In this document: one piece after another, positions 5,353-28,982 of the stretch
Layout: the number at the start of each line of letters is the position of its first letter
How positions within the stretch are numbered: position 1 is the stretch's first letter
From: Alteromonas sp. KC3
Lineage (GTDB): Bacteria; Pseudomonadota; Gammaproteobacteria; Enterobacterales; Alteromonadaceae
DNA: 64,000 nt
Reading direction: 5' to 3'
Assembly: GCF_016756315.1 (NCBI RefSeq)
Contig: NZ_AP024235.1
Coordinates: 3,596,001-3,660,000 of the forward strand
Translations under genes and position numbers: made by a program
Notes under the pieces: model-generated
What the model was told of the DNA's origin: nothing
What the model saw: only the letters and a program-made list of their open reading frames with translations
The model's database searches: none

Positions 5353-5439
5353 GCCAGTGTGATGGAATTGGTAGACATGACGGATTCAAAATCCGTTGCT
5401 AGCGATAGCGTGGCGGTTCAAGTCCGCCCACTGGTACCA
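5353..5439 (+). tRNA. tRNA-Leu (anticodon CAA)
   Basis: 87 nt including CCA. The acceptor strands GCCAGTG / CACTGGT pair (one G-T), the discriminator base is A, and the CCA is encoded. The anticodon stem ACGGA/TCCGT encloses the loop TTCAAAA, giving anticodon CAA. A variable arm (TGCTAGCGATAGCG) typical of class II leucine tRNAs follows, then the T-arm GGCGGTTCAAGTCCGCC. This is the leuX-type tRNA, a well-known integration site for genomic islands. Confidence 0.93.
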
Positions 5440-8835: not shown

Positions 8836-10602
8836 TTAGATTACAGTCATATCGACGGTTTCTTCATGAAGATGTTGATAATCTTCTAGTGATTGAGAAA
8901 AAAAGCTACGCTCTGACTTTCCAGCGCCTACATAAATCAGCTTTGAGTTAGTCGGAAAGTAAGAGCTTTGAACGTCTTTCACTCTGACTTTTTCGATAGG
9001 TTTGATTTCTGCATTTTCTTCAGGACTAGACTCTTTAACATGCTCAGAAATCGAAAAAAACGTCTGAGTATCACTTGGCAGATTATTCGCAACAAATGAC
9101 AGAATAGTCTCCAAGTTAGTCTCATCAATATCCTCCTTGAGAATGGCGTCAAGCAAGAATGGGAGTCTATGTCCTGTTTTTGATTTCTCTATCATGGCGT
9201 TTAAAGCAAAATGATAAGCCATGACGGTCTTGTGAAGTTCAACTCCTTGACGTGGGAAAGAATGTATTTTGTACAAATCTAGATATCGCGAATCAGTTAA
9301 AGGCTTAAGCTTTAACTGCGATGTATACTCTGTAAATATCTTCCTAAATGCCTCTTCCTTACTTATTCGTGAGGATATTGTTTCTTGTTCAGTGACCATG
9401 GCGCCAAGAGAAAGTTTTACGCTTTCTAACTCACTTTCTGAGTACTCAATATCTGCTTGCATTTTTTTATATAGCGTAATATTTGCTTTATTTGCCACCC
9501 ATTGTTCAAACGTAACTCCATCCACGTTTTTGTCCAAAAGTACGCCATAATCATTAAAAATTTCGTTTTCTATTGCCCTCATTTTCTTTTTAGACGAATT
9601 TATCTTAGATTTTTTATCTATTAGCTTACTTGTAATGTGCGACTCAAGCTCGACGGTATCATTATATTTTTGATAGTGGCTATACAATCCTTCAAGTGAA
9701 TATAACAGAACCTGCGTGCAGGCTGGGCAACGATCAACATCGTTGTAATTCTGTTTCTTGATATTACTTTTGGTTCTTTTTAGAATTTTATGATGATTTT
9801 GTAATAGAGAAAATTCATTACAAAGCTTTATATACTTGTTTCTTTCTTCCTCTAATGAATTTGCCTTTAAAACGTAGTTTTCAATATAGGCCTCTGCTTG
9901 CTCACCAAATGCTTCGTCAACCAAATTAGAAAACTGGAACTCCGCTTTCTTACTGTATCGTTTGAGATTATTTATCTCAGCAAAGAGTCGATCTCTTTCC
10001 TTCGTTAACCTTCTATGCTCCAAGCGATCAAACCTGTTACTTATACCTAGGTAATAATCTAAATAGTCGTCTTTAAATCCCTTGTAATATTGAAGATTAG
10101 AGAATGAATCACGTAAATATACCCAGCCTACAGACTGAGAAATGTAATACGGTAAAAACATGCTTTCAAGCGGAGCAGATTTTAGCTCTCCTTTTTGCTC
10201 AAGAATAAGCGAAAATCCAACTAAATCTCTTATGTAATCCTTCAGTCTAGTGTGCTCAACACTGTTATCTGCATCTATTCCATGGAAAGAAATTATTTTC
10301 CCGCTTGGCTCTTTGACATAGATGGTTTTTGAGTCCCTTACAATAGTATAAGATTCTTCAACATCACCTACTTTCTTAGTAAAGTCTACTCTGAACGTCG
10401 GCTGATATGACAGGATTTCGTCTAAACTTTCTCTAACGTCATTGACACCAAACGCGAACATTAGGCTCTGGATTAAAGAGCTTTTACCTGATGTGTTGCG
10501 CCCACTAATTATGTTTACACCAGGTGAAAACTCATTACTGAAACAAGAATTATGCGATTCTGAGCTTACAAATAATCTGTTAAACGTAATTGTTGTGTTC
10601 AT
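8836..10602 (-). CDS. SMC/Rad50-like ATPase with zinc-hook motif (LmuB-like)
   Basis: 588 residues. Walker A GRNTSGKSS lies at about residues 33-41. Coiled-coil arms follow, with a central CPAC zinc-hook motif at about 290. A Walker-B-like LPFLLDAILKED lies near 480-490. This is the compact Rad50/SMC layout seen in Lamassu-type defence systems and in other nuclease-coupled ATPases. The start is placed at the ATG overlapping the stop of the DUF4297 gene (TAATG), so translation is coupled. Presumably it senses DNA ends or foreign DNA and activates the nuclease. Lamassu membership is likely but not proven. Confidence 0.7.
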   Translation of the reverse strand: MNTTITFNRLFVSSESHNSCFSNEFSPGVNIISGRNTSGKSSLIQSLMFAFGVNDVRESLDEILSYQPTFRVDFTKKVGDVEESYTIVRDSKTIYVKEPSGKIISFHGIDADNSVEHTRLKDYIRDLVGFSLILEQKGELKSAPLESMFLPYYISQSVGWVYLRDSFSNLQYYKGFKDDYLDYYLGISNRFDRLEHRRLTKERDRLFAEINNLKRYSKKAEFQFSNLVDEAFGEQAEAYIENYVLKANSLEEERNKYIKLCNEFSLLQNHHKILKRTKSNIKKQNYNDVDRCPACTQVLLYSLEGLYSHYQKYNDTVELESHITSKLIDKKSKINSSKKKMRAIENEIFNDYGVLLDKNVDGVTFEQWVANKANITLYKKMQADIEYSESELESVKLSLGAMVTEQETISSRISKEEAFRKIFTEYTSQLKLKPLTDSRYLDLYKIHSFPRQGVELHKTVMAYHFALNAMIEKSKTGHRLPFLLDAILKEDIDETNLETILSFVANNLPSDTQTFFSISEHVKESSPEENAEIKPIEKVRVKDVQSSYFPTNSKLIYVGAGKSERSFFSQSLEDYQHLHEETVDMTVI

Positions 10603-11723
10603 TACAAGGCCTCTCCGTGGTGCTCTACAAATGCGCATAAAGTAGAGAAGAAAATATCAATATCGTTTAGATTGATGCTGATCTTTCTTTTAATATCCGA
10701 AACGTACGCTTCGAACATTTCATCATGGCTGTAAAAGTTCATAGAGTAGTCATTGTCCTTGACGAAGCTTTTGATTATCTGGTGCTCGTTATTCATCATG
10801 TCCTTGAGAAGTTCAAATGTATTCCTAATATAGTTTTCGTGACTATTTTGGATACCTATAGGAACTCGAAACTTACGAGCTAACTTGGTTGAGTGATCTC
10901 TCCACAGCTTGAATGTCTTCTGTTCTGTTTCAATGATATCAATCGCTTTCCTAATTTCATCGCCCTCAACCCTCTTAGAACTGTCAAGTAAGGTAATAAC
11001 TTTGCCTTGGTTATAAGTGGCTTCAACTTCTCTAAAAAGGCTAAGAAGCAACTCGACGGCGGCAAAAGGATCTGATACGTGTTGAAACTTCCTCCTCATC
11101 AGCCCGACTAGGCCATCTTTTTGTGCAGTCTTTGTTCGTGGAAAATCCACCCATTGAATATGCAGATTGGCGAGTTCATGTTTGTGGAAAGTAAGTTTTG
11201 CCTTGTCACAAAAACTGTCTACTTTCTTGGTGATTTTATCCTTGATATCGTCAGGAAAGGAATCGTATCTACACTTACAGTTCTGCTCGTTAAGCAGTGT
11301 TATTATTTCCTTTTTTCCATCATTCCTTTCTTTCTGATTTGGCGTGAATTTAAGCTCAATGTCGGAGTTGGATACAAAAGTTAGCTCATGAGTATAGTTT
11401 TGACATTTAGGTGCTGGGTCGTTTCGGAGATCGTTTCCAACATCTAGCATCTTAGCTATTACTTCAGAGAAACGTTCATTTATAGTCCATACCTTACCTG
11501 AAAGTTTTTTGGCCTGATAAGAATGCACTTCTTCAATATTACTTCGACAATCTGTTCTGTAGCAAAATAGGAAGTCGTCATGATGCTCGATACTAAGAAA
11601 AAACTCTCTTCCCTTGAATCGATTATATTCGTTTAGGAGTAAGTACAACGCACAATTGCGCTGAAATTCGAATCCCAATAAAGCATCAATCCCAGAGTTA
11701 GCTGATTTTTTTCTTTTATTCAA
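10602..11723 (-). CDS. DUF4297/Cap4-type endonuclease (LmuA-like)
   Basis: 373 residues. The N-terminal part has the DUF4297 pattern: GIDALLGFEFQRN (11-23), EHHDDFLF (46-53) and HSYQAKK (68-73). Asp50 and QAK (70-72) form a D...QxK nuclease core like that of Cap4 and Lamassu LmuA effectors. The C-terminal half is helical and unassigned. The gene appears to start with TTG: no ATG lies near the conserved N-terminus, AAGGTGA lies four bases upstream, and an in-frame stop lies just before. It precedes and is coupled to the SMC-like gene. Confidence 0.7.
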   Translation of the reverse strand: MNKRKKSANSGIDALLGFEFQRNCALYLLLNEYNRFKGREFFLSIEHHDDFLFCYRTDCRSNIEEVHSYQAKKLSGKVWTINERFSEVIAKMLDVGNDLRNDPAPKCQNYTHELTFVSNSDIELKFTPNQKERNDGKKEIITLLNEQNCKCRYDSFPDDIKDKITKKVDSFCDKAKLTFHKHELANLHIQWVDFPRTKTAQKDGLVGLMRRKFQHVSDPFAAVELLLSLFREVEATYNQGKVITLLDSSKRVEGDEIRKAIDIIETEQKTFKLWRDHSTKLARKFRVPIGIQNSHENYIRNTFELLKDMMNNEHQIIKSFVKDNDYSMNFYSHDEMFEAYVSDIKRKISINLNDIDIFFSTLCAFVEHHGEAL

Positions 11724-11788
11724 AGCTTCACCTTAATCAAAACCCTGATAGCATCCTCATCACACAATGCCATTTGCCCTTAAACTTT

Positions 11789-11803
11789 GTGACATATTGT
11801 CAC
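11789..11803. promoter_or_regulatory. Inverted repeat upstream of the DUF4297/SMC operon
   Basis: GTGACATATTGTCAC is an inverted repeat (6-bp arms, 3-base centre), extended outward by AACTT/AAGTT. It lies about 65 bases before the start of the operon at 11723, where an operator is expected. No adjacent regulator gene is obvious. Confidence 0.4.
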
Positions 11804-11999
11804 TTAAGTTGCTCAGTTTAAAGAAGCTGGTTTTGCTTCTAATTCCTTTATAGAAGAATAGTTTTACATACTTCAGATGAAACTGATATCCCATCGCGCT
11901 CTCATTCCGTCGATTTAAATTAAAGATTAGAAATTTTAAAATGAGGGACTAACGTTCGCCTATATATTAGTTTTAGTTTGGCCCAGAAGCCAATATGTG

Positions 12000-12761
12000 T
12001 TAGACACTTTTTTCGATGTTCCTTACTGCTTCAATCACCACATGTGTCGGAAATCGCAGGACTTCTTGTCCGTTTTCCACAGATTTGACTGTGGGCTCTG
12101 ATTGCTCTACGCAAATTTTCAAACACCAACCAAAAACAAGCTGCAAGTCAATATCTTTGAGGCCTTCCGATTCGCAATATTCTGTGGCTGTAACAAATTT
12201 CGTATTTGGTGAGACTTCTTCCAATGTATTAAGCTTTGAACTTATAGATTTAATAACTTCTTCATGCTTGGCAAAGCGTTCCTTAGTCTCTCTTTCTAAC
12301 CTTTCTCGTTCTTCTATTTCAAGTACAAGAGTTTTGGCTATTTTCATAACATCTGATTCTTGATGTACAAGTGGAGGCGGAAACTTGCCATATTTCATTA
12401 TAGAGGGTACTACTTCGTGATAGAGCCATCTCTGAAATTTCTTACCTGCTACGCTATCATCGTATGACAAAACCCTAAAGAGGCCTGGCTGGGTGACAAA
12501 CATTTCTTGCTTATCTAAATGGGTAAGAAGTTCGTTGTGAATATAAATGTATTCATCACTCTCAAGTTGTTTGAGGCGGCCTTTCAATACACCAATAATG
12601 GATTTTGATACATGAGTTTTATCTATATCCCGATTTTCTTTATTCAGTGCAGTCTGAACATCTATCAGCGAAATATAAAGAATATTACCCTGCATTACGG
12701 TTTTAATATCTGATGAGCCCTCAGTTCCTTCATAGCACACATTAATTAAATTATTTTCCAT
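12000..12761 (-). CDS. Bro-N domain protein (phage antirepressor type)
   Basis: 253 residues. The N-terminal half contains the Bro-N core: FVTQPGLFRVLSYDDS, then KKFQRWLYHEVVPSIMKYGKFPPP at about residues 95-125. A charged coiled coil follows (about 140-180), then a C-terminal domain that may bind partners or DNA. Bro-N proteins are DNA-binding factors of phages and mobile elements. GAGGAAG lies six bases before the ATG. It stands alone and may be a phage remnant or an island regulator. Confidence 0.8.
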   Translation of the reverse strand: MENNLINVCYEGTEGSSDIKTVMQGNILYISLIDVQTALNKENRDIDKTHVSKSIIGVLKGRLKQLESDEYIYIHNELLTHLDKQEMFVTQPGLFRVLSYDDSVAGKKFQRWLYHEVVPSIMKYGKFPPPLVHQESDVMKIAKTLVLEIEERERLERETKERFAKHEEVIKSISSKLNTLEEVSPNTKFVTATEYCESEGLKDIDLQLVFGWCLKICVEQSEPTVKSVENGQEVLRFPTHVVIEAVRNIEKSV

Positions 12762-13025
12762 TAAAACTTCCTCTGTGGCTGCTGCCTAACAGCTTATTAC
12801 TGAGACATCATAATTACACCCATTTCCGCATAATAAACCATCTTCCGTGATTTCACAGGAAAAGTAAAATACCTGCTTCTTGTATAGGCTGTATGAAAAC
12901 TATTTTAGTGATGACTCATTGGTGATTTTAGACAGAAACAAACTACATTAAACTCGTTAGCTTATTCACACCATATGTTCTGTTTTTAACGTAGGCTCAC
13001 TTAACGATATTGCTCAGCTGAGTTT

Positions 13026-13412
13026 TTACACAGTCTGCATACACAGCCATCTTTCGTTGCACCAAGTGTCGATATCCCCCCTTTCAAGAAAGCATGCGTC
13101 TTTGTTTTGAGAAGGTCCAGTACAGCCATTCGCATTACTGACCACCGATTTACATGTCTTCAAGGACTGATGCGAGCCTTTCAGCAATTGTTTCCTGAAA
13201 ACGACAATTATATCTTTCTCTAGCAAAACCATTTCATCAATCAGCTCTTCGTCTGTAAATGCTGAAAACCTAGGATCTCTCCTAACATCAAGAAGAGGCT
13301 TTACTCTCGAAACGAAGCGTTTAAACGCCTCTGCACCGCCAATATCAGAGGTATAAGCGAGGTAGGTATCTGCGACAATAGCTTTCACTTCATTAGCGTA
13401 TGAACATTCCAT
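13026..13412 (-). CDS. Small uncharacterised protein, Cys-rich C-terminus
   Basis: 128 residues, not recognised. The N-terminal 85 residues are helical (EVKAIVADTYLAY, AFKRFVSRVKPLL). The last 40 carry six cysteines (TCKS, GCTG, ACFL, WCNERWLCM), which suggests disulphides or metal binding. No signal peptide is obvious. It lies between the Bro-N gene and the HNH-lipoprotein operon on the same strand, with gaps on both sides. Confidence 0.5.
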   Translation of the reverse strand: MECSYANEVKAIVADTYLAYTSDIGGAEAFKRFVSRVKPLLDVRRDPRFSAFTDEELIDEMVLLEKDIIVVFRKQLLKGSHQSLKTCKSVVSNANGCTGPSQNKDACFLERGDIDTWCNERWLCMQTV

Positions 13413-13533
13413 GTCAAAAACCTATTTAAGAAAATAATACGAGTAAATCTAACTTACTTTCATCGAAGAAGTAACTGGACTAGCGCACGGTTGTTATATT
13501 TTTCGTAATGACTCTTCCGTCATGCTTCGTGGG

Positions 13534-14283
13534 CTAATTATCTGTGCAAGCTTTTCGCATTCTGTTGATGACTCTTTTTTCGCTGGGAATAAGTAGAAGA
13601 CCATATTTATCGATGACGTTCATAAATCGCTCAATGTATTGACATCGGTAAGCCTGATTCGGCGGTAACCACTCATCTAAACCTTTAGCCCCCTTCTGTC
13701 GATTGAGTGACGCTTTGACCAACAAGAGGTTTTCAGAATCATTTGCAAATGCTTGCCGTTTATCTCGGGGCCATTTGTCACCGCCATGACCGTGCGCAAA
13801 TTTAAGCGGTACGATGTGATCGAGGTCAAGCTCAGCAGAATCAGTAAATACATCCCCAGAATACGGGTCATACCATTCACCGACGGCAACTTGACATCCT
13901 CTATCGGTTTTAAACACGACAGGAATGTTAGACGTTGATATCAACATTTCATGGCGCGTATTCTGACAATCACTATCATCATCAATCCAATGCGGCCAAT
14001 CGGCCCTGTCATAGTCAGAGGTGAAGGCCCTACCTTCGTTTAACGCCTCTTTTTCAGCCTGCTGGTATGCCGATTTTCCTTTGGGTAATCGACCACCGCT
14101 TTCAAGACAGGCTTCAATAGTACTAAAGGCTTCGAAATTCTTGGTTCGATTGTAAGATGCGCTCGACGTGTCATGACATATACCAGAATTACTCTTTTTT
14201 ACTTGGGTATTAGCATCACTGGGAAATGTGCATGCAAATATAAACAAACTCAGTAGTATGAGTATCGGTGTGTTGCGATTCAT
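13534..14283 (-). CDS. HNH endonuclease lipoprotein (DUF1524/GmrSD C-terminal type)
   Basis: 249 residues. The N-terminus has a lipoprotein signal with LFIFAC at Cys18. The body matches secreted DUF1524 nucleases: YDRADWPHWIDDD, an early TR, GCQVAVGEWYDPYSG, the catalytic LDLDHIVPLKFAHGHGGDKW, FANDSENL, and LNRQKGAKGLDEWLPP. An AAGG box precedes the ATG. It is the last gene of the leftward KAP / MORN-AAA / membrane-protein group. A nuclease anchored outside the cytoplasm could degrade incoming DNA; its link to the ATPases is inferred from gene order only. Confidence 0.8.
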   Translation of the reverse strand: MNRNTPILILLSLFIFACTFPSDANTQVKKSNSGICHDTSSASYNRTKNFEAFSTIEACLESGGRLPKGKSAYQQAEKEALNEGRAFTSDYDRADWPHWIDDDSDCQNTRHEMLISTSNIPVVFKTDRGCQVAVGEWYDPYSGDVFTDSAELDLDHIVPLKFAHGHGGDKWPRDKRQAFANDSENLLLVKASLNRQKGAKGLDEWLPPNQAYRCQYIERFMNVIDKYGLLLIPSEKRVINRMRKACTDN

Positions 14284-14333
14284 GATTGCCTTGTTCTTAT
14301 CTTTTTTATATTTACGGTATATTGCCTAGGTTA

Positions 14334-15032
14334 TTAATTATTATCACCTTTAAATGAGTTCCTGATTTTTCCGATATTGGTAATACCAGAACGGGACAGG
14401 CTAGTAGGGTTGAAAAAACTTCCTTCTTTGTACTTTACAAGTCTCGCGACAACAGGCGCAGCAATTAATAGGAACATCGTTGCAAATGCCCTGGCGCTGC
14501 GTCGCGATTCTGCGTTTTTTCCTGGTGGTGAGAGTAACCACCATATCGCCAACATCGTAAGCGTGCCCCAAAACACTTTCGTCACAAACACAACAGGAAA
14601 CATCCCTCTAACACCCGATTTCCATGTGTAGTGAAGAACACCCAACAAACATGCTAAAACCGCGCTGCCGGACAGTATAAAATACAGGTCTATAGAAAAA
14701 TTAAAAATCATCCATACGAAGCCAATTGCAGCTGGTGAGGCAATCATGCCAAAACACAATGCTAGGTCATCGAAGTTGTAAAATACCGTTGTGTTTTGCC
14801 TGAAACCACTTATGGTCCCCCAAAGAACAATGACCAACATTACGATGATAATAGCGTCATACTGCTCAGAGCTGATTGATTTTAGTCCTGTTTCATCTTT
14901 GATTGTTTCTGCTTTATCTTGTACCGCTTCTGTCAGCGTTTGTTGGTTTTGATTTGTTTGCGCAGTAACGTTTGGCGACAAAAAACACAACATGAGTACA
15001 GAAACAATTACGTAAGCTAATCGACACCTCAT
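14334..15032 (-). CDS. Multi-pass membrane protein of the KAP/MORN-AAA operon
   Basis: 232 residues: a signal peptide (cut near VTAQT), a polar helical stretch of about 30 residues, then four to five hydrophobic segments (roughly residues 55-75, 90-110, 113-135, 145-165 and 182-200) and a basic tail. No family recognised. Its start overlaps the stop of the MORN-AAA gene by four bases (ATGA), which supports operon membership and coupled translation. It could anchor the ATPases or form the membrane-acting effector. Confidence 0.65.
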   Translation of the reverse strand: MRCRLAYVIVSVLMLCFLSPNVTAQTNQNQQTLTEAVQDKAETIKDETGLKSISSEQYDAIIIVMLVIVLWGTISGFRQNTTVFYNFDDLALCFGMIASPAAIGFVWMIFNFSIDLYFILSGSAVLACLLGVLHYTWKSGVRGMFPVVFVTKVFWGTLTMLAIWWLLSPPGKNAESRRSARAFATMFLLIAAPVVARLVKYKEGSFFNPTSLSRSGITNIGKIRNSFKGDNN

Positions 15033-16231
15033 AGCTGAATTTCCTTATTTTTTAATACGGCTTTGATATCTTCAACCTGAATTGTAGTTAGTGCCAATTC
15101 GGAGTTCGCGTTTTCAGAAATGATACGATTTGATTGATGAATTATGGCTCGCTCGAACAGATTTCTCGCAAGGCGACCGTTCGCGAAGTTCTTTTTCTTT
15201 CTACTGATGGCGATGTTATAAACTTTAGTTAGGAACTGTCTTGCATTATCATCAAGCACATACCCGCTCTGTTTGCAGATAAGGTCAGAGATAGATAAAA
15301 GCTCGTTAGCGTTATAGTCAGGGAAGTCGATAAAGCGGTTAAAACGCGATGCAAGCCCCGGGTTTACTTGAAGCATCGCATTCATTTCTTTTTGGTAACC
15401 AGCCATAATAACTACCAAATCGTCACGACGGTCTTCCATGAGTTTAAGCAATGTTGCTATGGCTTCCTCGCCATACTGGTCTCGGTCGTCTTTTACTAAC
15501 GCATAAGCTTCATCTATGAATAGTACGCCTCCGGTTGCCTCATCTACTATATCAGTTACCTTGATACCCGTTTGCCCCACAAACCCCGCGACTAGTCCCG
15601 AGCGGTCAGTTTCTACCATGTGACCTTTGGATAACACTCCTAACGTGCCTAAGATACTGGCAATCTGACGAGCGATGGTCGTTTTACCCGTGCCCGGATT
15701 CCCCGTTAATACCATGTGAAGGCTTATAGATAACTCAGGTAAATCATGTTCGCGCCTGATTTTTTGCACCTTAACAAGGTTAATAAGACTTTTGATTTCT
15801 TTCTTGACCGCGCCTAAACCGATGAAAGCATCTAACTCCTCCATAAGAGTTTCAAGTGCCTTATGGCTGGCTTTGACATCTTCAACCTTGGCCCATTCTT
15901 CAGGATTTTCCACATCACGTCTTGCACAAGGACGGTTATCTTTTAAATAGCCTTCATACCCCAACTTTCCCTGTTCATCATATACTCTCCCCTTCCCATG
16001 CAATTTATTATCTACCCATGTTCCTTCACTGAACTTGATTCCGTTTGGAAAATAAGCGGTGCCTTCGCCTTCGAAGTCCCCCTCCGCAAATTCACCAACA
16101 TAAAGCAAGTGCCCTTCTTCTGCGAACAAAACGCCTTTACCGTGGAACTGCTGCGTAACTGGGTGCACCGTGCCGACGTATTCAATGTTGCCATTGTCGT
16201 AGAAAAACTGAACGCGTTCTAAGTCACTCAT
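15029..16231 (-). CDS. MORN-repeat / CbbX-type AAA+ ATPase fusion
   Basis: 400 residues. Residues about 5-100 are MORN-type repeats (YVGTVHP, GKGVLF, YVGEFAEGDFEGEGTAYFPNG, GTWVDNKLHGKGRVY). From about 130 comes a single AAA+ domain of the CbxX/CfxQ/SpoVK kind: FIGLGAVKKEIKSL, Walker A GNPGTGKTT (about 175-183), Walker B VLFIDEAYAL (about 235), sensor VIMAGY, and an arginine-finger SRFNRFIDFPDY. The MORN part may bind membranes or a partner. The gene lies six bases after the KAP gene, and its stop overlaps the next start. An unusual fusion; function unknown. Confidence 0.8.
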   Translation of the reverse strand: MSDLERVQFFYDNGNIEYVGTVHPVTQQFHGKGVLFAEEGHLLYVGEFAEGDFEGEGTAYFPNGIKFSEGTWVDNKLHGKGRVYDEQGKLGYEGYLKDNRPCARRDVENPEEWAKVEDVKASHKALETLMEELDAFIGLGAVKKEIKSLINLVKVQKIRREHDLPELSISLHMVLTGNPGTGKTTIARQIASILGTLGVLSKGHMVETDRSGLVAGFVGQTGIKVTDIVDEATGGVLFIDEAYALVKDDRDQYGEEAIATLLKLMEDRRDDLVVIMAGYQKEMNAMLQVNPGLASRFNRFIDFPDYNANELLSISDLICKQSGYVLDDNARQFLTKVYNIAISRKKKNFANGRLARNLFERAIIHQSNRIISENANSELALTTIQVEDIKAVLKNKEIQL

Positions 16232-16237
16232 AATGCG

Positions 16238-18154
16238 CTACTCTACTCCTAACAGCTCGCTAAGACATTGGTTTAGCTCAAATAAACCCTGTTTGACTTC
16301 GTGATGGTCCCGCTCTACGTCGTCGGTAAGCTCTATCACCTTCTCGATGACAATGATGCTTTTATATGCATGCGCATGGACGTCGATCTCATACTGCGAG
16401 GCCACCGCTTCCATCTCGCTACAAATGTCGTTTAACGCGCGGTGTGCCTTTCTTCGTCCACTGGCATACTGCATCATAATATTGTCACCATCCTCGACTG
16501 TGATTTCACAGACAAGCGACATCGTATCTGGATAATCGTAGACTCTTGCAGTATCAGAAATCGCGAATGAAAATGCCGCGTTTGAGTAATTTGTTGTTTT
16601 TTCTTTTGACACGATTTTAAATCGTGTTGTGTCACCGTCTCGTTTGATTTTGCTCTGGGGCAGTGTTGGTATAATGAGGAAGTCGAACGTCTCTTGGGCT
16701 ATATCGTCAAGTAGCGCACTAAAATATGAAGAAATAGCATTTTTCCTATCCTCGTCCGTGCCTGCTCGTGAGCTCGAATATGAAGAGTCGTCATCATCTA
16801 CCGAAGTTAATTGAAGCCCTTGTGCGATGCGCTTAACTTTGTGCATTTCAGCGTCGTCAAAATCTCCGCTTCCATCCTCATCAACAACATTGGCTAACAG
16901 CGTTAAAAAGGTTTCTGGCTGCTTGTTATCGGCTTCAGCGCGTTCTATTAGGCGAATGAATTCTGTGAGATGCGGATCTTCTTCGTGGTTATCCCAATCC
17001 AGTGAGTCCAGTAATAAAAAATCTAGGCTCTCAGTGCGATATATAAGTGAGAAGAGTGGCTCGTAAGCAATTTGAAAGCACGTAAATCCGAATAAAAGTA
17101 ACTGGTTGTGCTCGTCTCCATCTAAATCAAGCTTGTCTTCAGACATATCAAGATTGTGTGAAATGCTCATCAACGACAGTACATTAATTAACCGCTTAAT
17201 ACTTCTGGGGTTGGTGCCTATACTGGTAATAAGTAGATTCGCGCATGTAGTTAATCCTTCATCAGACATGCCATTGCCGTAGTTTGAACGTTCTAACAGG
17301 CGAGTGAGGTACGTTTTGATGTGTGCACCGTATGTCACAGTTGGCATTTGAAAAGGAAGTTGAATAATCTTATCAAAAAAGCTTCGCCCTTCGGCATCTA
17401 CTTCATCGGTGCCAAATTTAGCACTCACGCCCTTTTTAACCACACTTATATCCAGTGCCAGTACGAACACACATTTGGGAATATCGACGAATAACTTAAG
17501 CGTCTCAAGTAACTCAATAGCACTTTCAGGGCGAATGCGATCTAAATCATCGATAAAGATAACGATGCGGTTAAGTCCTTCATCCACGCATATTTTCTCA
17601 ACATACATCGTCAAGTCACGTTTTAGGTTCGATAGTGCATCAGACAATGCCAAGGTACTGGTATTTCCTACACCACCTTGTTTCCGTGCTTCGTCGTAAA
17701 CCTCCGTAGCAATACCACCAGTTGCAGCATAGGCAACTCCGCGACCTGCGGCAAATAGAAAGGGTTTAAGGGTATTTAATGAGCCTTGAACCTTTTTCAG
17801 CATATCAGAACTTTTTTCATCAAGCCGCTGTTTAAGCTGTCGCGTTAAGCTTTCCAAGAAGATGAGCGGCAACAATGAACTATTCGACGAGAATTGCGAA
17901 TACTGCCATGTGTTGAACCAGAATGAGCCGACCTTCACTGTTTCGTCAGTGGCAAGTGTCGATTCAATTAAGCGCATCATACTTGTTTTACCTGTACCCC
18001 AGTCGCCTTGAATAGCGATAGTCATGGGCGTACCGCACTGCACGATGAACTGGCTAAGTGCAAGCGCATAGCGTGTGAGACCTAACATTTCATCCTTAAA
18101 GTCACTGCCTTCACCTAGCGGGATATCTTGTACAGCGTGGGGGATAGTGTGCAT
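16238..18154 (-). CDS. KAP-family P-loop NTPase
   Basis: 638 residues from the ATG at 18154, chosen because AGAGGA lies eight bases upstream. Features: Walker A GDWGTGKTS (50-58), the KAP hallmark WFNTWQYSQF (about 79-88), a weak hydrophobic segment in the middle, Walker B VIFIDDLDR (about 200), then LDISVVKKGV and a conserved NPRSIKRLINV box. KAP NTPases are membrane-associated STAND-like ATPases that recur in defence systems (PifA, QatA). It heads a leftward operon with the MORN-AAA protein and is divergent from an XRE regulator with shared operators. Confidence 0.85.
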   Translation of the reverse strand: MHTIPHAVQDIPLGEGSDFKDEMLGLTRYALALSQFIVQCGTPMTIAIQGDWGTGKTSMMRLIESTLATDETVKVGSFWFNTWQYSQFSSNSSLLPLIFLESLTRQLKQRLDEKSSDMLKKVQGSLNTLKPFLFAAGRGVAYAATGGIATEVYDEARKQGGVGNTSTLALSDALSNLKRDLTMYVEKICVDEGLNRIVIFIDDLDRIRPESAIELLETLKLFVDIPKCVFVLALDISVVKKGVSAKFGTDEVDAEGRSFFDKIIQLPFQMPTVTYGAHIKTYLTRLLERSNYGNGMSDEGLTTCANLLITSIGTNPRSIKRLINVLSLMSISHNLDMSEDKLDLDGDEHNQLLLFGFTCFQIAYEPLFSLIYRTESLDFLLLDSLDWDNHEEDPHLTEFIRLIERAEADNKQPETFLTLLANVVDEDGSGDFDDAEMHKVKRIAQGLQLTSVDDDDSSYSSSRAGTDEDRKNAISSYFSALLDDIAQETFDFLIIPTLPQSKIKRDGDTTRFKIVSKEKTTNYSNAAFSFAISDTARVYDYPDTMSLVCEITVEDGDNIMMQYASGRRKAHRALNDICSEMEAVASQYEIDVHAHAYKSIIVIEKVIELTDDVERDHHEVKQGLFELNQCLSELLGVE

Positions 18155-18236
18155 GAGCATCGTCCTCTGATGAACTGAGAATGTTGCGTTCGAGCGCAAT
18201 TCTTGCGTCAAACAATTCACACACAAACTTAACACA

Positions 18237-18270
18237 ATATCTGAAAATCAGATATCTAAAATTCAGATAT
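18237..18270. promoter_or_regulatory. Tandem operators between KAP operon and XRE gene
   Basis: ATATCTGAAAATCAGATAT (18237-18255) is a perfect 8-bp-arm inverted repeat. It overlaps by four bases a second, slightly imperfect one, ATATCTAAAATTCAGATAT (18252-18270), so half-sites recur about every 15 bases. The pair lies in the divergent promoter region, 35 bases before the XRE start. It is the expected binding site of that regulator. Confidence 0.7.
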
Positions 18271-18304
18271 AGAGTGACTGTCCGCCACTTAATGAGACGC
18301 GGAT

Positions 18305-18553
18305 ATGTCAAAGACACTGTATACACGCGAACACGATATTTTGTTGAAAGTTATCAGAGCGACCAGAGCAAAATCTGGGCTTACACAAGCTCAATGTTCA
18401 GCTGCGCTTGGTCGCCCACAATCCTTCATAAGCGATGTCGAGCGCGGAGTAAGGAGACTAGATATTATTCAACTAAGAGAACTGTGTCATGTCCTCAACC
18501 TTTCACTGCCGACTTTCGTCAAATTATTAGAAGATGAAATACGAAGAGGCTAG
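18305..18553 (+). CDS. XRE-family HTH regulator
   Basis: 82 residues, almost entirely one Cro/C1-type helix-turn-helix: LLKVIRATRAKSGLTQAQCSAALGRPQSFISDVERGVRRLDIIQLRELCHVL. Small stand-alone XRE proteins of this kind often repress a neighbouring defence operon. It is divergent from the KAP gene, and the tandem palindromes at 18237-18270 lie between them, so it probably controls both directions. Confidence 0.85.
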   Translation: MSKTLYTREHDILLKVIRATRAKSGLTQAQCSAALGRPQSFISDVERGVRRLDIIQLRELCHVLNLSLPTFVKLLEDEIRRG

Positions 18554-19106
18554 CATGACCATGCTTTGTTATATAACAAGCAAACTGCTGCGTTGAAGCA
18601 ATTCGCAATAGCAACTTTTAATTCATATTAACAGTAACTACTTTCAGTTAATGCCTATCGGAATTTTGCTGCCGTTAGGCTGCATTAACATGGAGTTATT
18701 TTTCGTTATTATCTATGATCGGATATCGGTCTAGGGAAGCTGTTAACAGTAACTATTTTAAATTTAATGGCATGCTGGCTGAATGGATGTGAAGTGGACA
18801 GAATTTCACCCTGAAATTCCCCCTTTTAAATAATTGTCCCGTAACATCTATATCACCTTGTAAGGTCGCGCCTTCCCCTAAGGTTGTTATCAAATCTGTA
18901 TATTTGGGATTATCTTATGAACAAAAAACCTAACATATATTTACATTGATTTTCTATTTGATCGGGTTGGATTTACTTCAGATTTTTACTTGCGTTATTT
19001 TCAAATAACTTTGTAAACATAAAAAAAAGAAAAATGACACAAAAAAACTTGTCCTTTTAACTATGCAGTATCTTTTTAAGAGAGATTTTGAAGAAGCACG
19101 TTCTTG
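18554..19106. other. Noncoding stretch with two copies of a dispersed repeat
   Basis: No gene seen. Two related units lie here: about 18586-18665 (CTGCGTTGAAGCAATTCGC, then TTAACAGTAACTACTTTC) and about 18668-18770 (GCCGTTAGGCTGCATTAAC, then GCTGTTAACAGTAACTATTT). The first matches 40967-41065 and the second matches the reverse complement of about 38178-38283. The remainder is AT-rich and featureless. Confidence 0.5.
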
Positions 19107-19289
19107 TTACTGATCAAAGCTACTATCTAAATAAACACTTTGAATAAAATCAATCTCTTCTGGTGTTAATACGTTAGAGACGCACTTAAATTGCCTATCG
19201 AAATATCTAGAAAGGAGTTTATGTAACTCGCTACTAGTCAGAGACTTTTTGCCGTCTAAGTATTCTCTTATCTCATCTGCACACTGCAT
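19107..19289 (-). CDS. Small uncharacterised protein
   Basis: 60 residues, helical and acidic, not recognised (DEIREYL, ELHKLLSRYF, TPEEIDFIQSVYL). AAGG lies six bases before the ATG. It follows the EAL gene after 11 bases on the same strand and is probably the last gene of that operon. Confidence 0.5.
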   Translation of the reverse strand: MQCADEIREYLDGKKSLTSSELHKLLSRYFDRQFKCVSNVLTPEEIDFIQSVYLDSSFDQ

Positions 19290-19300
19290 TATTTATAACC

Positions 19301-19990
19301 TTACTTAACTAACTTTTTCTGTTCTAACTCTCTAAAAAAAAAGCCCTGCATTAATAAATTTAGTTCCTTACAGAATATGTATTTTTCAAAACAATCTACT
19401 CCTTCTACAATTACATTGTCAGCCTTTTTGCATAGATTACTTAGTAAACAACTCAATAGTTTTTTATCTTGATAGAAAAGTTGCCAAAAAAGTTCTTTAG
19501 ACAATTTTATTGCGTCAAAACTGCATTTTTCTAACGTATCAAAATTAGAGAAGCCATTGCCAAAGTCGTCTAACCAAATTGAGACATTAGGATGTGCTGT
19601 GAGCGCCTTGATTGCTCCAACATTTTCTGGCGAGGTATCCATTGATTCTGAGATTTCCAGTGCAATATGCAAACCTCTGAAGTCTTCTATTAACAAAGTG
19701 AGATACGCCGATTTAAGAAATTCTCCGTTCACATTGAATGAAACTTTTTTTATACCTCTTTGAGATATTTCTGAGAGAACGTCTCTCAAATAGCAGAAGT
19801 AATTAACTCTCGAAAACCTGTAAAAAAACTGTTCACTATCCTGTTGGTCTTCCGATAAAAATACTGACGTGAGGATTTCATAATAGTTATTCTCAGAACC
19901 AATAGTTCTGGTAATACACTCTAGTCTAGGTACAAGGTCGTACTCTAATTCCCTACTAGAAAAACTTCGGGTAGACAGCACTATCTCCAT
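19301..19990 (-). CDS. EAL-domain protein with altered first motif
   Basis: 229 residues, a stand-alone EAL domain. Matches to the c-di-GMP phosphodiesterase fold: ELEYDLVPRL (EAL motif changed to EYDLV), VSFNVNGEFL (metal Asn), ALEISES (Glu), WLDDFGNGF (two Asp), AIKLSKEL (Lys), IVEGVD (Glu) and LMQGFFF (Gln). Most ligands are kept, but the first motif and several flanks differ, so the protein may bind rather than cut c-di-GMP. It starts right at the stop of the wHTH gene (TAAATG) with GAGGT upstream. Confidence 0.75.
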   Translation of the reverse strand: MEIVLSTRSFSSRELEYDLVPRLECITRTIGSENNYYEILTSVFLSEDQQDSEQFFYRFSRVNYFCYLRDVLSEISQRGIKKVSFNVNGEFLKSAYLTLLIEDFRGLHIALEISESMDTSPENVGAIKALTAHPNVSIWLDDFGNGFSNFDTLEKCSFDAIKLSKELFWQLFYQDKKLLSCLLSNLCKKADNVIVEGVDCFEKYIFCKELNLLMQGFFFRELEQKKLVK

Positions 19991-20419
19991 TTAAAAACCT
20001 ACCTCTGTCAGCATATAACCTACTTTTCGTTGGTTTAATATATGTACACCAGTACTTGTTAGCGCAGTTCTGAGCTCAGAAATTACGACATTCACATTAT
20101 TTTCAACTCTTGGATAATCACCCCAGACGTATTTCATAATGTCGTCTTTGCTGACAAACTCATCAGTATTTCTCTGTAATAGGCACAGAGCTCTTCCAGC
20201 AGAATAAGAAATTTTGAAGTTCCCTCTGTTTGTGTAAAGAAAACCGGAGTCAAATTTAACTAATGAACTTACTACAAAACTTCGACTTGGATACAAAGAG
20301 CATTTAAAGCAGTGTTGACTGCAAAACTTATTACTTAACACTTTATTTGCAATCTTTCGATTATCACGTAGGTACTCGTCTCGTGTTAAAAAAATAATAT
20401 TTGAAGTAGTTTTAGACAT
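19991..20419 (-). CDS. Winged-helix (OmpR/CadC-type) DNA-binding protein
   Basis: 142 residues. The C-terminal part (about residues 65-140) is a trans_reg_C winged helix: FKISYSAGRALCLLQRN, FVSKDDIMKYVWG, VENNVNVVISELRTAL and the hairpin ILNQRKVGYMLTE. The N-terminus carries CSQHCFKC (four Cys/His), possibly a metal or redox site. No membrane segment. It is sandwiched between HD-GYP-like and EAL genes and may be the output regulator of this signalling operon. Confidence 0.75.
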   Translation of the reverse strand: MSKTTSNIIFLTRDEYLRDNRKIANKVLSNKFCSQHCFKCSLYPSRSFVVSSLVKFDSGFLYTNRGNFKISYSAGRALCLLQRNTDEFVSKDDIMKYVWGDYPRVENNVNVVISELRTALTSTGVHILNQRKVGYMLTEVGF

Positions 20420-20497
20420 AAAAAACTCCCTGATCCCTTAATGGAGTAAGAATAACTGCATTGGTCATAAAAGAAATTTTTATAAAAATTATAAATT

Positions 20498-21490
20498 TTA
20501 TAAAATAAGTGTTTTAATCCGTGATTCTTGGATAACTTCTATTTTTTGGTGTTGCTTTGAGAAGGCAATTATGCTTCCGCTTTCAACATGCATCTCTTTC
20601 ACTAGATATAGCGTTCCATTTGATTCAGCTACACAGCTGCCTTTAGGAAATAACCTTAGAAATAAGCATAACTTCTTGAATATGATTGGGTCGATCACTT
20701 CATTCAACGCCATGTTTTGCATGTCGTTAATAGTTTCATATGGTGACTTTTTAGCTTGATAACGTCGCCCAGAGGTCAACGCCTCGTAGGTATTCAGAAC
20801 TCTTAGAATTCTCGCACCAAGCTTGATTTGACGGCCTTTCAGACCACTAGGATAACCAGTACCATTAAAATTTTCATGGTGTTGGACTATAAGTGTTATT
20901 AGCGAACCCGATATGTTGGATTCACTAGCAATTTTCGCTGATTCAATGGGATGTTTTTGAATAAGTCCTCTTTGATATTGCGTGACTAACCTCCTAGAGC
21001 CCAACAATACTGGCTGCATTGCCATAGAAATGTCGATTAAGAATGCAGCATTGCAATATTCAATCGTCTTGCATCTGGTAAAGGTGAGATAATTACAAAA
21101 ACTAGCTGTTAGACAAACAAGCTTTACCGCTCGCTTGAAGAGCTCATTTTCAGAACGAATCAAGTTTGCACATGTCTTATGACAGAAGTTTCCCTCTATT
21201 ACTTGAGAAACAATCGCGTTGACACGTGAAACTACTGAAGCTTCATTTATCAATCCCGAACTAACTATTTCGGAAAATATGATTTTTAATAATTTGACGT
21301 TTTTCTTAGTTAGTCTAGAGTTTTTATTTAAGCTTATAACATAAAGATTTTTGTAGGCAGCTAAATCTTTAATATCCTTATTTGATTTAACTTTTTTAAA
21401 ATTTGTTATATATGGGGTGTGAAACCAATTTTTAAATACAAATACCAAATCACCGAGATTCAAATCGGCTGGTTGAATTTTTTTAAACAT
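20498..21490 (-). CDS. HD-GYP-like protein lacking the HD dyad
   Basis: 330 residues. The C-terminal half keeps the GYP part (HHENFNGTGYPSGLKG, KLGARILRVLNTYEALTSGRRY) and the HP motif (QKHPIESAKIA). The canonical HDIGK is replaced by IDISM, and the later VxDxYDAL by VLNTYEAL, so key metal ligands are missing. It is probably a binding or regulatory derivative, not a c-di-GMP phosphodiesterase. First gene of the leftward operon with the wHTH and EAL genes. Confidence 0.75.
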   Translation of the reverse strand: MFKKIQPADLNLGDLVFVFKNWFHTPYITNFKKVKSNKDIKDLAAYKNLYVISLNKNSRLTKKNVKLLKIIFSEIVSSGLINEASVVSRVNAIVSQVIEGNFCHKTCANLIRSENELFKRAVKLVCLTASFCNYLTFTRCKTIEYCNAAFLIDISMAMQPVLLGSRRLVTQYQRGLIQKHPIESAKIASESNISGSLITLIVQHHENFNGTGYPSGLKGRQIKLGARILRVLNTYEALTSGRRYQAKKSPYETINDMQNMALNEVIDPIIFKKLCLFLRLFPKGSCVAESNGTLYLVKEMHVESGSIIAFSKQHQKIEVIQESRIKTLIL

Positions 21491-21827
21491 GAATTTTGCA
21501 ACATATTGTAATTATAAATGCCGCATAGCCTTCCCATTGGCCTTTAACATCCCTGATATTTATAGTATTAAGTTGTTCCTGCTATTGTCACCTCTAATTT
21601 ATTAAACGAACAGTATTAATGCTTCAGCACTTACTATCAATACTACTTTAGTTTAAAAACTATTGACTTAGTTAGGTTGGGGAAACTGTAGATACGACCC
21701 ACTAAGGAGAAAGTGGACAAACAAGGAATCAGTAGTGCAATAAATTGCGATTAGAAATCCAAGCACAGTGACATGGAAGCGCCTAACATCAATCGATTGA
21801 AAGAGCTAAAAAGAATGTTCGCGGACG
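21491..21827. other. Intergenic region, nothing identified
   Basis: AT-rich stretch upstream of the HD-GYP-like gene and downstream of the DUF429 gene, both on the minus strand. The promoter of the signalling operon should lie here, but I see no convincing box, repeat or gene. Confidence 0.4.
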
Positions 21828-22829
21828 CTAGCTCATAAATCGGCGCTTGAACTCTCTTTTTCTTGCCTCAGGCTCGACCTCTGTTAATCCAGTGCAGCGA
21901 TGCGCGGCATGCGCATCCCACCCAAACGGCCAGCGTTTAAATTCATGTTGATGACAGGCTGGGCAGGCACGCTGATGGTCTGCATTGGAAACAGGCTGCT
22001 TTTTCTTTGTTGTGGTTTTAGGCTTTGTCGTTGGATTTTCCGTTGGACTGTTTATCGGCTTAATTTTTGGTATCCAGATAGCATCGTCTTTCTCAGGGTC
22101 ACCAAAACAGATGCGTTCCTGTTCAGGTAAGCTTGCTACCCATGCCGCACTGTAGGCGTCCACTCTGTCATGCATCGGTCCAAGGCACATATTGTCTGCT
22201 TGCGACCAATCGTCGTCAGTTTTAGGCCAACCGGTGTAATGCGACATGGCAGACAATTGCAATTCTGCCTGATTTCCTTTGCTTTTGTGGATGTCAGCAA
22301 CACCTAACTGTTTGACTGTCGCGTGGGGATAGACTTCTATGCATTCGGCGACTTTGCTTAGCCGTTCGTTCAACGCAAAACCCAACAGCATAAAGATTTG
22401 GTGGGCATGTGGTAGGTTTTGTATTGGCTTACCCGCCTCAAGATGTGCAATACCTTTCGCTTTAATCACCTTAAAGTCATTGGCAGAAGGTGTGGTGTAA
22501 CAACTAATACTTGCTCTATCGAGCGCCTGTTCTGCAAATCTACGCTTAAGATGGTTATCCCTTGGCCGAAGCGGAGAGTCGATACCTATTCGGATTGGGC
22601 TTAAATGGAATGCGTCGCATACCGTTTCTATGTAACTGGCGACATTTTCTGCAAATGCCTGATTAACCTTGTCATCCAAGGTCCGTCCGTTGCCTAAACC
22701 TCTCGGTGGTTTTATTGGGTAGCTGGCTAACGGGAACGGTATTAGTCGCCCATTTTCTTGAGTACAAATCACCAATGGCAGGTACTTGCCTTTGGCACAA
22801 GCGACATCGATACCGATAAACACGTCCAT
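21828..22829 (-). CDS. DUF429-like RNase H-fold protein with C-terminal zinc motif
   Basis: 333 residues. The N-terminus FIGIDVACAKGKYLPLVI and the later RIGIDSPLRPR, CIEVYPHATVKQLG and HDRVDAYSAAWVA follow the DUF429 pattern, an RNase H-like fold with acidic residues. A Pro/Lys/Thr-rich linker (about residues 255-280) leads to a small CPACHQHEF...HRC cluster, probably zinc-binding. Function of the family is unproven. It is divergent from the Mrr-like gene. Confidence 0.7.
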   Translation of the reverse strand: MDVFIGIDVACAKGKYLPLVICTQENGRLIPFPLASYPIKPPRGLGNGRTLDDKVNQAFAENVASYIETVCDAFHLSPIRIGIDSPLRPRDNHLKRRFAEQALDRASISCYTTPSANDFKVIKAKGIAHLEAGKPIQNLPHAHQIFMLLGFALNERLSKVAECIEVYPHATVKQLGVADIHKSKGNQAELQLSAMSHYTGWPKTDDDWSQADNMCLGPMHDRVDAYSAAWVASLPEQERICFGDPEKDDAIWIPKIKPINSPTENPTTKPKTTTKKKQPVSNADHQRACPACHQHEFKRWPFGWDAHAAHRCTGLTEVEPEARKREFKRRFMS

Positions 22830-22957: not shown

Positions 22958-23725
22958 ATGCCTAGAAAAAATACTTCTTTTGCTGACCTTCTTTTCCAAG
23001 CGCCATGGTGGGTTTCGGTTATAACAGCAGCTATTACCTATGTTGTAATGGGTCAGGTACTGCCTTCCGTTGAAACTGATAACCAGCTTATCAACATGGT
23101 ATTTAAGGCACTCGCTATTCCTGCGCCTTATTTTGCACTTTTCATATTACTCATCGCGCCTTTTTCGTTTTTTAATGCGCGTCGGAAAGCCAAGCAATTA
23201 GATGCGCAAAAGAGTATTGAAACCATCAGACAACTGCATTGGCGCAATTTTGAGGAGCTAGTGGCAGAAGCCTATCGAAGACAAGGGTATCAAGTAACCG
23301 AAGGTAGCTTTGGTGCTGACGGTGGAATTGACCTAGAACTGAGGAAAGGCGAAGGGCTTATTCTCGTTCAGTGCAAACAATGGAAGGCACAAAAAGTTGG
23401 TGTCAGTGTGGTACGCGAGATGTTTGGTGTATTAACCGCCAGTAATGCAGACAAGGTTATTGTCATCTGTTCAGGCAGATTCACCCAACAGGCAATAGAC
23501 TTCGCATCTGATAAACCAGTGACTCTCATTGACGGAAATGAACTGCTATCTCTTATTCATGAAGTGCAAACAGAACCAAAAGTAGAAACGGTTAAACAAA
23601 ACGTCTGCCCTAGGTGTGGTAGTGAGCTTGTAGAACGGCAAGCAAAACGTGGCGCTCATGCTGGAAACGTCTTCTTGGGTTGTTCTGCCTTCCCCAAATG
23701 CCGTTACACCGAAGAATTATTTTAA
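22958..23725 (+). CDS. Mrr-type restriction endonuclease with membrane helices and zinc ribbon
   Basis: 255 residues. Two hydrophobic segments (about 18-35 and 52-72) are followed by an Mrr_cat domain: WRNFEELVAEAYRRQGY, GADGGIDLEL (Asp) and LVQCKQWK (QxK). The C-terminus is a topoisomerase-type zinc ribbon (CPRCGSEL...GNVFLGCSAFPKC). Mrr-type nucleases attack modified or foreign DNA. AAGGA lies upstream of the ATG. It has a close paralogue in island 2 (43379-44137). Confidence 0.85.
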   Translation: MPRKNTSFADLLFQAPWWVSVITAAITYVVMGQVLPSVETDNQLINMVFKALAIPAPYFALFILLIAPFSFFNARRKAKQLDAQKSIETIRQLHWRNFEELVAEAYRRQGYQVTEGSFGADGGIDLELRKGEGLILVQCKQWKAQKVGVSVVREMFGVLTASNADKVIVICSGRFTQQAIDFASDKPVTLIDGNELLSLIHEVQTEPKVETVKQNVCPRCGSELVERQAKRGAHAGNVFLGCSAFPKCRYTEELF

Positions 23726-27901: not shown

Positions 27902-28812
27902 AAAGGCAAACCTGCATCACCATAATTAAGCTCATCCGCTGCTTTACGCATGGTTTTATCATCGCGCTTATCGTAAATGACGGTAGTTGAGATGTCCGAA
28001 TGCCCTGCCATTTGGCGGACTGTGTTTAGGTCTGCGCCTTGGTCTAGTAATCGAGTAATGTATGTACGGCGTAAGTCATGGGGTGTGACGGTGGGTAAAC
28101 CGAGTTCTTTGAAGTATCGCTTGACCAGTGAATAGACTAATTCTCCATTAATAGGATTGCCTGTATGCGCATGACCACCGCGTTTTACGGTGCAAAATAG
28201 GAAGCCAGGTTCTTCGGTACGCGCCTCTACCCAGTCTTCGATGGTAACCTGCACCCAGTCAGGCAAGTAGACGGTACGCGACTTGTTGCCTTTGCCTTGG
28301 GCAACAAATAGGGTGCGCTTTTCTTTATCGTAGTGCCCAATGTTTAAGTCAGCTACTTCGCTTCGGCGCAGGCCACATCCTAACATCACTGCAAAGATGG
28401 CATAGTTACGCAGACCTAACGGTGTGCGGTTCTGAGCGAGCAGCCGAAATAGCTTTCGCACCTGATGCACTGTAAGCGGCGTACCGGCATGCTGGCCATG
28501 CTTTACCTTAGGAACAGATTGAAGATTGAGATAATGTTGTTGGTCGACTTGGTTGGTAATAACGGCAGCTTTCACCACACCGCGTATCGCCATCATAGCT
28601 CGGTTGATACTGCGTGGTGCATAGCCTTCGCGTAGAAGTGTATTTTGAAGGGAAAGCGCCTGTGCATAATCAACGCAGGTAAGCTTGGTAGGTAAATCAA
28701 CAATTGGCCAATCCATGACATCAGCAATACCTTCTAACTGAGCCTGAATTGACCGCCTGCTATTGGTTGATAATCGAGCCAAATACAGCTGATACGGACA
28801 CTGAGTATCCAT
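27898..28812 (-). CDS. Tyrosine recombinase (XerC/D-like)
   Basis: 304 residues from the ATG at 28812, fixed by AGGAGG six bases upstream. It has the full catalytic set: GCGLRRSEV (Arg), GKGNKSR (Lys), HDLRRTYIT (His, Arg), AGHSD (His) and TVIYDKR (Tyr). It is smaller and of a different type from the island integrase at 41136. It heads a leftward operon with the double AAA ATPase. Likely the recombinase of an inner mobile element or a resolvase. Confidence 0.85.
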   Translation of the reverse strand: MDTQCPYQLYLARLSTNSRRSIQAQLEGIADVMDWPIVDLPTKLTCVDYAQALSLQNTLLREGYAPRSINRAMMAIRGVVKAAVITNQVDQQHYLNLQSVPKVKHGQHAGTPLTVHQVRKLFRLLAQNRTPLGLRNYAIFAVMLGCGLRRSEVADLNIGHYDKEKRTLFVAQGKGNKSRTVYLPDWVQVTIEDWVEARTEEPGFLFCTVKRGGHAHTGNPINGELVYSLVKRYFKELGLPTVTPHDLRRTYITRLLDQGADLNTVRQMAGHSDISTTVIYDKRDDKTMRKAADELNYGDAGLPL

Positions 28813-28982
28813 AGGAACCTCCTGAATAAGCGTTTTTGAGTGGGAAAGAAGTGGCTGCCATACCACAGCCATATCCACAATTTAACGCCTATTTCAGATG
28901 ATTCCTGCCGTTGTTTTTGACCTATTTAGTTGACAGTGTTATGCGCTAGAACAATTGCTACAGCTTTCAAACTCACCAAGCA

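Follow-up and report, generated by a model that had tools for sequence, protein, structure and literature searches.

A candidate membrane-associated defence module with an EF-hand-bearing KAP NTPase and a separable HNH nuclease cassette in Alteromonas sp. KC3

We have analysed a gene set in a 64,000-nt stretch of the genome of Alteromonas sp. KC3 (hereafter the window, positions 3,596,001-3,660,000 of a single-contig genome of 4.56 Mb) that an initial annotation had put forward as a new four-gene defence operon. The genes encode a KAP-type P-loop NTPase (KAP), a fusion of MORN repeats to an AAA+ ATPase (MORN-AAA), a membrane protein (MEM) and an HNH nuclease (HNH), and are followed by an open reading frame (ORF) that we call p128. 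We read the locus as a membrane-associated anti-phage or anti-plasmid module made of a KAP/MORN-AAA/MEM operon plus an HNH-p128 cassette able to exist alone, a reading to which we assign a probability of about one half. What is new here, judging from the sequence, is a canonical EF-hand loop in KAP. The KAP/MORN-AAA/MEM core was seen intact only in this genome, and the nuclease appears to be an exchangeable follower of that core.

The operon and its control region

KAP, MORN-AAA, MEM and HNH lie head to tail on the minus strand, separated by 6, -4 (an ATGA overlap) and 50 bp, and p128 (13026..13412, minus strand), of which the first ~85 aa are conserved, follows 121 bp further on. Positions and gaps were as first annotated, p128 having been omitted. 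KAP (16238..18154, minus strand; 638 aa; KAP_NTPase 5e-39) comprises an RdrA-like NTPase fold, the EF-hand and a C-terminal alpha/beta region; its start was placed at an ATG with AGAGGA upstream, the mechanical ORF beginning at a GTG at 18235. MORN-AAA (15029..16231, minus strand; 400 aa) carries MORN repeats (PF02493, 1.1e-6) and an AAA+ module of the CbbX/SpoVK/EccA type (AAA, PF00004, 7.3e-20; AAA_lid_6, PF17866, 2.4e-14). The description of MEM (14334..15032, minus strand; 232 aa) as a four- to five-helix membrane protein agreed with hydropathy, which placed 4-5 transmembrane (TM) helices after a signal-like N-terminus. HNH (13534..14283, minus strand; PF07510, 1.2e-11) is a predicted secreted nuclease of the GmrSD_C/DUF1524 type and a probable lipoprotein.

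The small divergent regulator and tandem palindromes noted at the head of the operon were both located. The regulator is an 82-aa XRE-family helix-turn-helix protein (18305..18553, plus strand; HTH_3, PF01381, 1.5e-8), and the promoter region that faces it (18155-18304) holds two tandem palindromes in the XRE-KAP interval (18237..18270), a probable operator. The first, ATATCTGA/TCAGATAT, spans 18237-18255, and the second, ATATCTAAA/TTCAGATAT, spans 18252-18270 and is 89% complementary. A divergent XRE gene with operator palindromes is the usual autoregulation layout. Promoter and terminator scans gave results at or below chance, and Rfam returned no match within 10000-22000.

An EF-hand loop in a KAP NTPase

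KAP is a member of its superfamily by score (134.7 bits to Pfam KAP_NTPase, gathering score 20) and by both nucleotide-binding motifs, which are intact. In the Walker A motif GDWGTGKTS (residues 50-58; 17981..18007, minus strand), found from sequence and alignment, D51, W52, G53, G55, K56, T57 and S58 were invariant in 36/36 aligned KAP sequences, and so were D202, D203, D205 and R206 of the aligned Walker B motif DDLDR (residues 202-206; 17537..17551, minus strand). Simple hydropathy predicted no TM insert, its sole peaks (215-239) falling on a core strand of the structural model. The closest solved fold to that model, by a slim lead and at 13-15% identity, was RdrA, in line with the earlier statement that RADAR contains a KAP-type NTPase. 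The C-terminal region (about 500-638) was modelled with modest confidence and barely probed by the fold searches.

The EF-hand Ca2+-binding-type loop, DEDGSGDFDDAE, occupies KAP residues 425-436 (16847..16882, minus strand) and was found by pattern and model. In the model, a helix (413-424) is followed by the loop and a second helix (434-447), with block pLDDT (predicted local distance difference test) values of 85-91 over 411-440 and 75 over 441-450; that is, a 12-residue ligand loop is flanked by two helices, as in an EF-hand. We found 2848 KAP relatives, and among the best 120 (P0003-P0122), which include two near-copies of the window KAP (P0003 and P0004; 98% and 90%), a strict pattern (D.[DNS]G[DNSG]G.[ILVF]...E) occurred in 31, at residues 396-425. 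In 200 letter shuffles, which ignore relatedness, the mean count was 0.02 and the highest 1. When 121 KAPs were aligned, loop position 12 was E in 114, position 3 was D or N in 100 and position 8 was L, I, F or V in 116, and all four tested ligand positions were kept in 63. The strict label needed 12 changes on a FastTree tree, versus 28 in shuffles, the near-copies contributing to this difference; the loop thus appears clustered, and repeatedly lost or gained. Genome searches gave 13 KAP loci, of which one (L083) had the strict loop. The EF-hand region was also compared with TerB domains, an identity that was not supported (HHalign probability at most 2.6%), the test being weak because the TerB side consisted of single sequences.

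To our knowledge, the cue that switches on KAP NTPases is mostly unknown. For Tmn, the published account states the activating cue as unknown (PMC11846954). An EF-hand kept across one group of KAPs would offer a concrete trigger that can be tested. In the open-licence literature we found nothing relevant on EF-hands with KAP NTPases, EF-hands and calcium with anti-phage defense, MORN with AAA ATPases and phage, or TerB with calcium and phage defense; publication elsewhere is possible.

KAP genes were more widespread than the core. The nearest named relative (98%) came from Alteromonas australica, and matches at E ≤ 1e-30 were present in 13/394 genomes of the order; within the genus, 11/59 genomes matched at E ≤ 1e-3 (both counts include the own genome), the matches in nine other genomes of the genus being weak. 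A single plasmid record reached E ≤ 1e-30, and searches of viral contigs with KAP, MORN-AAA and two MEM queries found no relatives. One KAP relative, in genome G275 (L093, 6632-11743), stands between an MmeI-type restriction-methylation gene and a gene for a TerB protein, with gaps of 15 and 9 bp. Another, on a Butyrivibrio plasmid, adjoins McrBC and is followed after 1 bp by a gene for a 4-TM protein; its EF-like loop misses the strict pattern. That KAP genes generally have a multi-TM neighbour was not supported.

A rare core and a separable nuclease cassette

The proposal of a conserved four-gene unit did not hold: searches of order, family and genus genomes turned up no second instance of all four in one place, and HNH was found with p128 instead. 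Partners were sought around 13 KAP loci (L083-L095, from G022 and 12 genomes of the order) and around 20 MORN-AAA loci (L011-L030), and none of these had another member of the set, bar a generic AAA gene in L085 (3e-4). Several of the contigs were short (3.7-4.4 kb for L011, L012 and L018), so a partner could lie past the contig end. A second KAP contig of G127 (L061, 4.2 kb) had no partner either.

This absence of the KAP/MORN-AAA/MEM combination elsewhere in the genomes searched is what a chance assembly of three island genes that share one promoter without working together would predict. Against such an assembly stand the tight spacing of 6 and -4 bp and the finding that KAP (98%, 90%) and MEM (97%, 84%) each occur in two diverged versions, as if co-travelling, although this was seen at the protein level only. 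We regard chance assembly as quite improbable, and joint action of the three proteins as rather likely.

MEM is the rarest of the three. No Pfam family passed its cut-off (best ABC_export, 16.4 bits versus 29.7), and among 432 candidates two proteins matched at E ≤ 1e-3 (P0001 and P0002, the two versions just given). Counting the own genome each time, MEM was present in 3/394 order, 4/375 family and 2/369 class genomes, samples that overlap; the other class genome, G764, had a broken match (6e-5, with four stops) that we did not accept as a relative. Plasmids yielded no relative of MEM or p128, and a single weak plasmid match (6e-2) of the MEM relative from L082 was not believed. Structure prediction gave a pLDDT of 43.5, and the MEM profile had one chance-level match among solved structures.

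Elsewhere in the family, three genomes carry distant MEM relatives (L081, L082 and L106). In G427 and G931, MEM (473 and 475 aa, N-terminally extended) forms an operon with a coiled-coil TM protein and an Mrr_cat nuclease (PADLOC PDC-S02). In G354, a TerB protein gene lies 10 bp behind the MEM relative, and genes for a secreted Endonuclease_NS and a PDDEXK_4 protein (PDC-S26) are nearby, outside the operon. None of the three stretches contained a relative of KAP, MORN-AAA, HNH or p128. Since these three and the window are all the MEM loci seen, the link between MEM and nucleases is suggestive only; a family without a Pfam entry that stands with different nucleases elsewhere in the family would point to modular membrane-linked defence. 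Upstream of the G931 operon are genes for a WYL regulator, a small protein and a calcineurin-like phosphoesterase, the whole stretch (L106, 6748-12806) being itself a candidate defence locus.

For MORN-AAA, the claim that a MORN/CbbX fusion is unusual stood in part: the layout is uncommon, and not unique, because a Peptoclostridium plasmid protein shares it at 44.6% identity. The protein matched the CbbX structure 3zuh at 2e-58 and fell below the family cut-offs of CbbX, SpoVK and EccA (250/459, 271/423 and 249/467 bits). Matches at E ≤ 1e-3 were obtained for 11/98 relatives, with a strong match in the own genome only and the next at 5.7e-7. At E ≤ 1e-20 the family genomes gave 2/236, the own genome and G913, whose protein (40% identity) carries, where MORN would be, a weak match to SAP. 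By eye, the G913 gene (in the stretch L110, 5234-14628) adjoins what seem to be WYL regulator and DUF262 genes. Plasmids held 281 MORN-AAA records, 6 with at least 80% coverage, four of which were opened.

The nuclease had been proposed to act outside the cytoplasm; it combines a GmrSD_C match with a lipobox leader, and its secretion and activity are predictions from the sequence. The HNH core DHIVPL...N..N.K (13693..13821, minus strand) is intact, with D155, H156, P159, L160, N185 and K197 invariant in an alignment of 22 sequences (A4), in which the leader with its lipobox cysteine and further conserved cysteines were also seen. No solved structure matched the HNH profile at E ≤ 0.1.

Could HNH-p128 be an independent secreted-nuclease cassette, serving nutrient DNA breakdown, entry-stage cutting or competition, and not part of the system at all? 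We consider this close to an even prospect. HNH has 705 relatives at E ≤ 1e-3 (best 120 listed) and occurs at E ≤ 1e-20 in 14/59 genus genomes, own included, and contexts differed among the five loci inspected at length (L096-L100). In two other species of the genus, G024 and G045, whose HNH proteins are 86% and 84% identical to that of the window, a p128 homologue comes next after HNH (L096, 5e-40; L097, 2e-40), with no KAP, MORN-AAA or MEM gene adjoining. The HNH loci of 11 other genomes showed no p128, KAP, MORN-AAA or MEM within flanks of at most 1.5 kb. Viral contigs gave five HNH loci, the best at 49% over residues 86-229. On the other side, DNA identity of 83% extends over 13209-14292 in G024 and over 13209-14378 in G045, and the latter reaches into the 3' end of MEM (14334..14378, minus strand, by DNA alignment): upstream of HNH, G045 keeps 14 MEM codons at 86% (tblastn 0.008 and 0.005). 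The MEM-HNH adjacency thus looks old, predating a DNA divergence of ~17%; either MEM and HNH were probably once neighbours in the G045 lineage or the cassette border lies inside MEM. In G024, about 15-20 bp of the MEM end look similar, which is suggestive. A further point against independence is that, of the three MEM loci outside the window, two include an Mrr nuclease in their operon and the third has nuclease genes nearby. HNH-p128 thus appears to be a separate cassette, able to exist without MEM or the core, and the locus would exemplify an apparent four-gene operon that is a core plus a travelling cassette.

Around the set, the expected defence-type island was found, with LmuA and LmuB of Lamassu downstream (6e-146 and 1e-243) and other defence-type neighbours. 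The LmuB/LmuA pair occupies 8836-11723, LmuA starting at a TTG, and a Bro-N domain protein (12000-12761) lies between it and HNH-p128. A ~90-bp intergenic repeat (12785-12878) is dispersed: six Alteromonas plasmids carry copies of it at 77-82%, and others lie in L045, L033, L096 (two) and L068, in the last about 100 bp upstream of an HNH stretch. A tRNA-Leu (caa; 5353-5439) marks the left of the defence-type genes, where G+C drops from 0.48 to 0.36-0.41. Two Mrr_cat plus Zn-ribbon proteins of identical layout are encoded at 22958-23725 and 43379-44137, the first followed by an NYN plus OST-HTH/LOTUS protein. A 670-aa protein with two AAA stretches (IetA/TRIP13-like) overlaps a phage-integrase gene by 4 bp (25889-28878).

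Proposed working and relation to known systems

A defence role, which we favour because of context, family links and regulation, is probable. In the working that we propose, the XRE protein would keep the operon low from the tandem palindromes, and KAP would assemble into a ring like those of RdrA and QatA and detect invasion by one of two cues, either incoming nucleic acid or a Ca2+ rise read by the EF-hand. The CbbX-type MORN-AAA would remodel or load its partner at the membrane, with MEM as the platform in the inner membrane. Where present, HNH would act as an extracytoplasmic DNA-cutting enzyme, against which p128 may shield the cell; that HNH works together with the core is a tentative part of the scheme, possible rather than probable. 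In a study of QatA, DNA binding and a probable heptamer or octamer are described (PMC13279940), which makes a DNA-sensing KAP ring a reasonable model.

The second of these cues, the Ca2+ rise, would arise when the envelope is breached. Seawater holds Ca2+ outside the cell at millimolar concentration. This step follows from motif and predicted fold. Ca2+ sensing by KAP is in our view rather unlikely, and a fully Ca2+-gated immune module, with the EF-hand KAP ring, MORN-AAA and MEM acting where a phage or plasmid has breached the envelope and working with a membrane nuclease, is a long shot; if true, EF-hand KAPs would form a wide class of prokaryotic immune NTPases that sense calcium. Two observations count against what we propose: Pfam EF-hand models matched at most 3/36 KAP members, the window KAP not among them, which bears on the Ca2+ part, and QatB with QatC is described as sufficient against some phages in the same study (PMC13279940).

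The EF-hand also fits a Ter-like metal- or envelope-stress response, in which KAP would sense Ca2+ or metals and MORN-AAA would maintain membrane proteins. TerB proteins beside a MEM relative (L081, 35.8 bits) and a KAP relative (L093, 30.7 bits), and a match below cut-off (20.0 versus 24.4 bits) beside a SpoVK-type AAA relative (L011), point the same way, but Lamassu adjoins the set, MEM relatives have nuclease partners of PADLOC type, the nearest solved KAP fold is that of RADAR, and the TerB comparison above was negative within its limits. We hold a stress response to be improbable.

RADAR, Qat, PifA and Tmn all include KAP NTPases; in RADAR the partner, RdrB, is an adenosine deaminase. As the initial annotation had it, the set matches no named system: RADAR and Qat partners are missing, and KAP is closest to defence KAPs. 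What likeness there is to RdrA lies in the KAP fold, where its lead is slim, and the differences are the low identity, the EF-hand and the other operon partners here. QatA likewise is a KAP NTPase extended at its C-terminus (PADLOC 2.6e-31), but NCBIfam QatA scored 123.6 bits against a cut-off of 600. Pfam and PADLOC scans of the eight proteins between 10602 and 18553 found no RdrB-type deaminase domain, QatB, QueC-like QatC or TatD-like QatD. A degenerate or partner-swapped QatABCD or RADAR, which the similarity of KAP to QatA and RdrA might suggest, is thus largely refuted, as judged by the partners absent at this locus, and very improbable.

PifA is a defence KAP to which ours is similar over residues 20-328 of 638 (PADLOC 3.2e-29, a model without a curated cut-off). 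Tmn likewise has a defence KAP NTPase, as described in its report (PMC11846954). The Tmn protein has two TM segments, whereas by hydropathy the window KAP has no TM pair, and the window KAP differs from both Tmn and PifA in the two genes tightly coupled behind it. The best PADLOC model for KAP was that of the KAP candidates PDC-S20 (6.2e-35, residues 10-332), whose four matched models are 446-464 long versus 638 residues here. MORN-AAA resembles CbbX, SpoVK and EccA in its AAA module and lid (249-271 bits) and differs in its MORN N-terminus, and no Rubisco, spore or ESX genes were found among the scanned neighbours. HNH shares its domain with GmrSD_C/DUF1524 nucleases, but the DUF262 NTPase domain of GmrSD type IV restriction was not found here, where only GmrSD_C and a weak HNH_4 matched. 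Because a tested defining feature is missing in each case, we do not file the locus as RADAR, Qat, Tmn or GmrSD, and place it as a variant of the KAP-based defence candidates.

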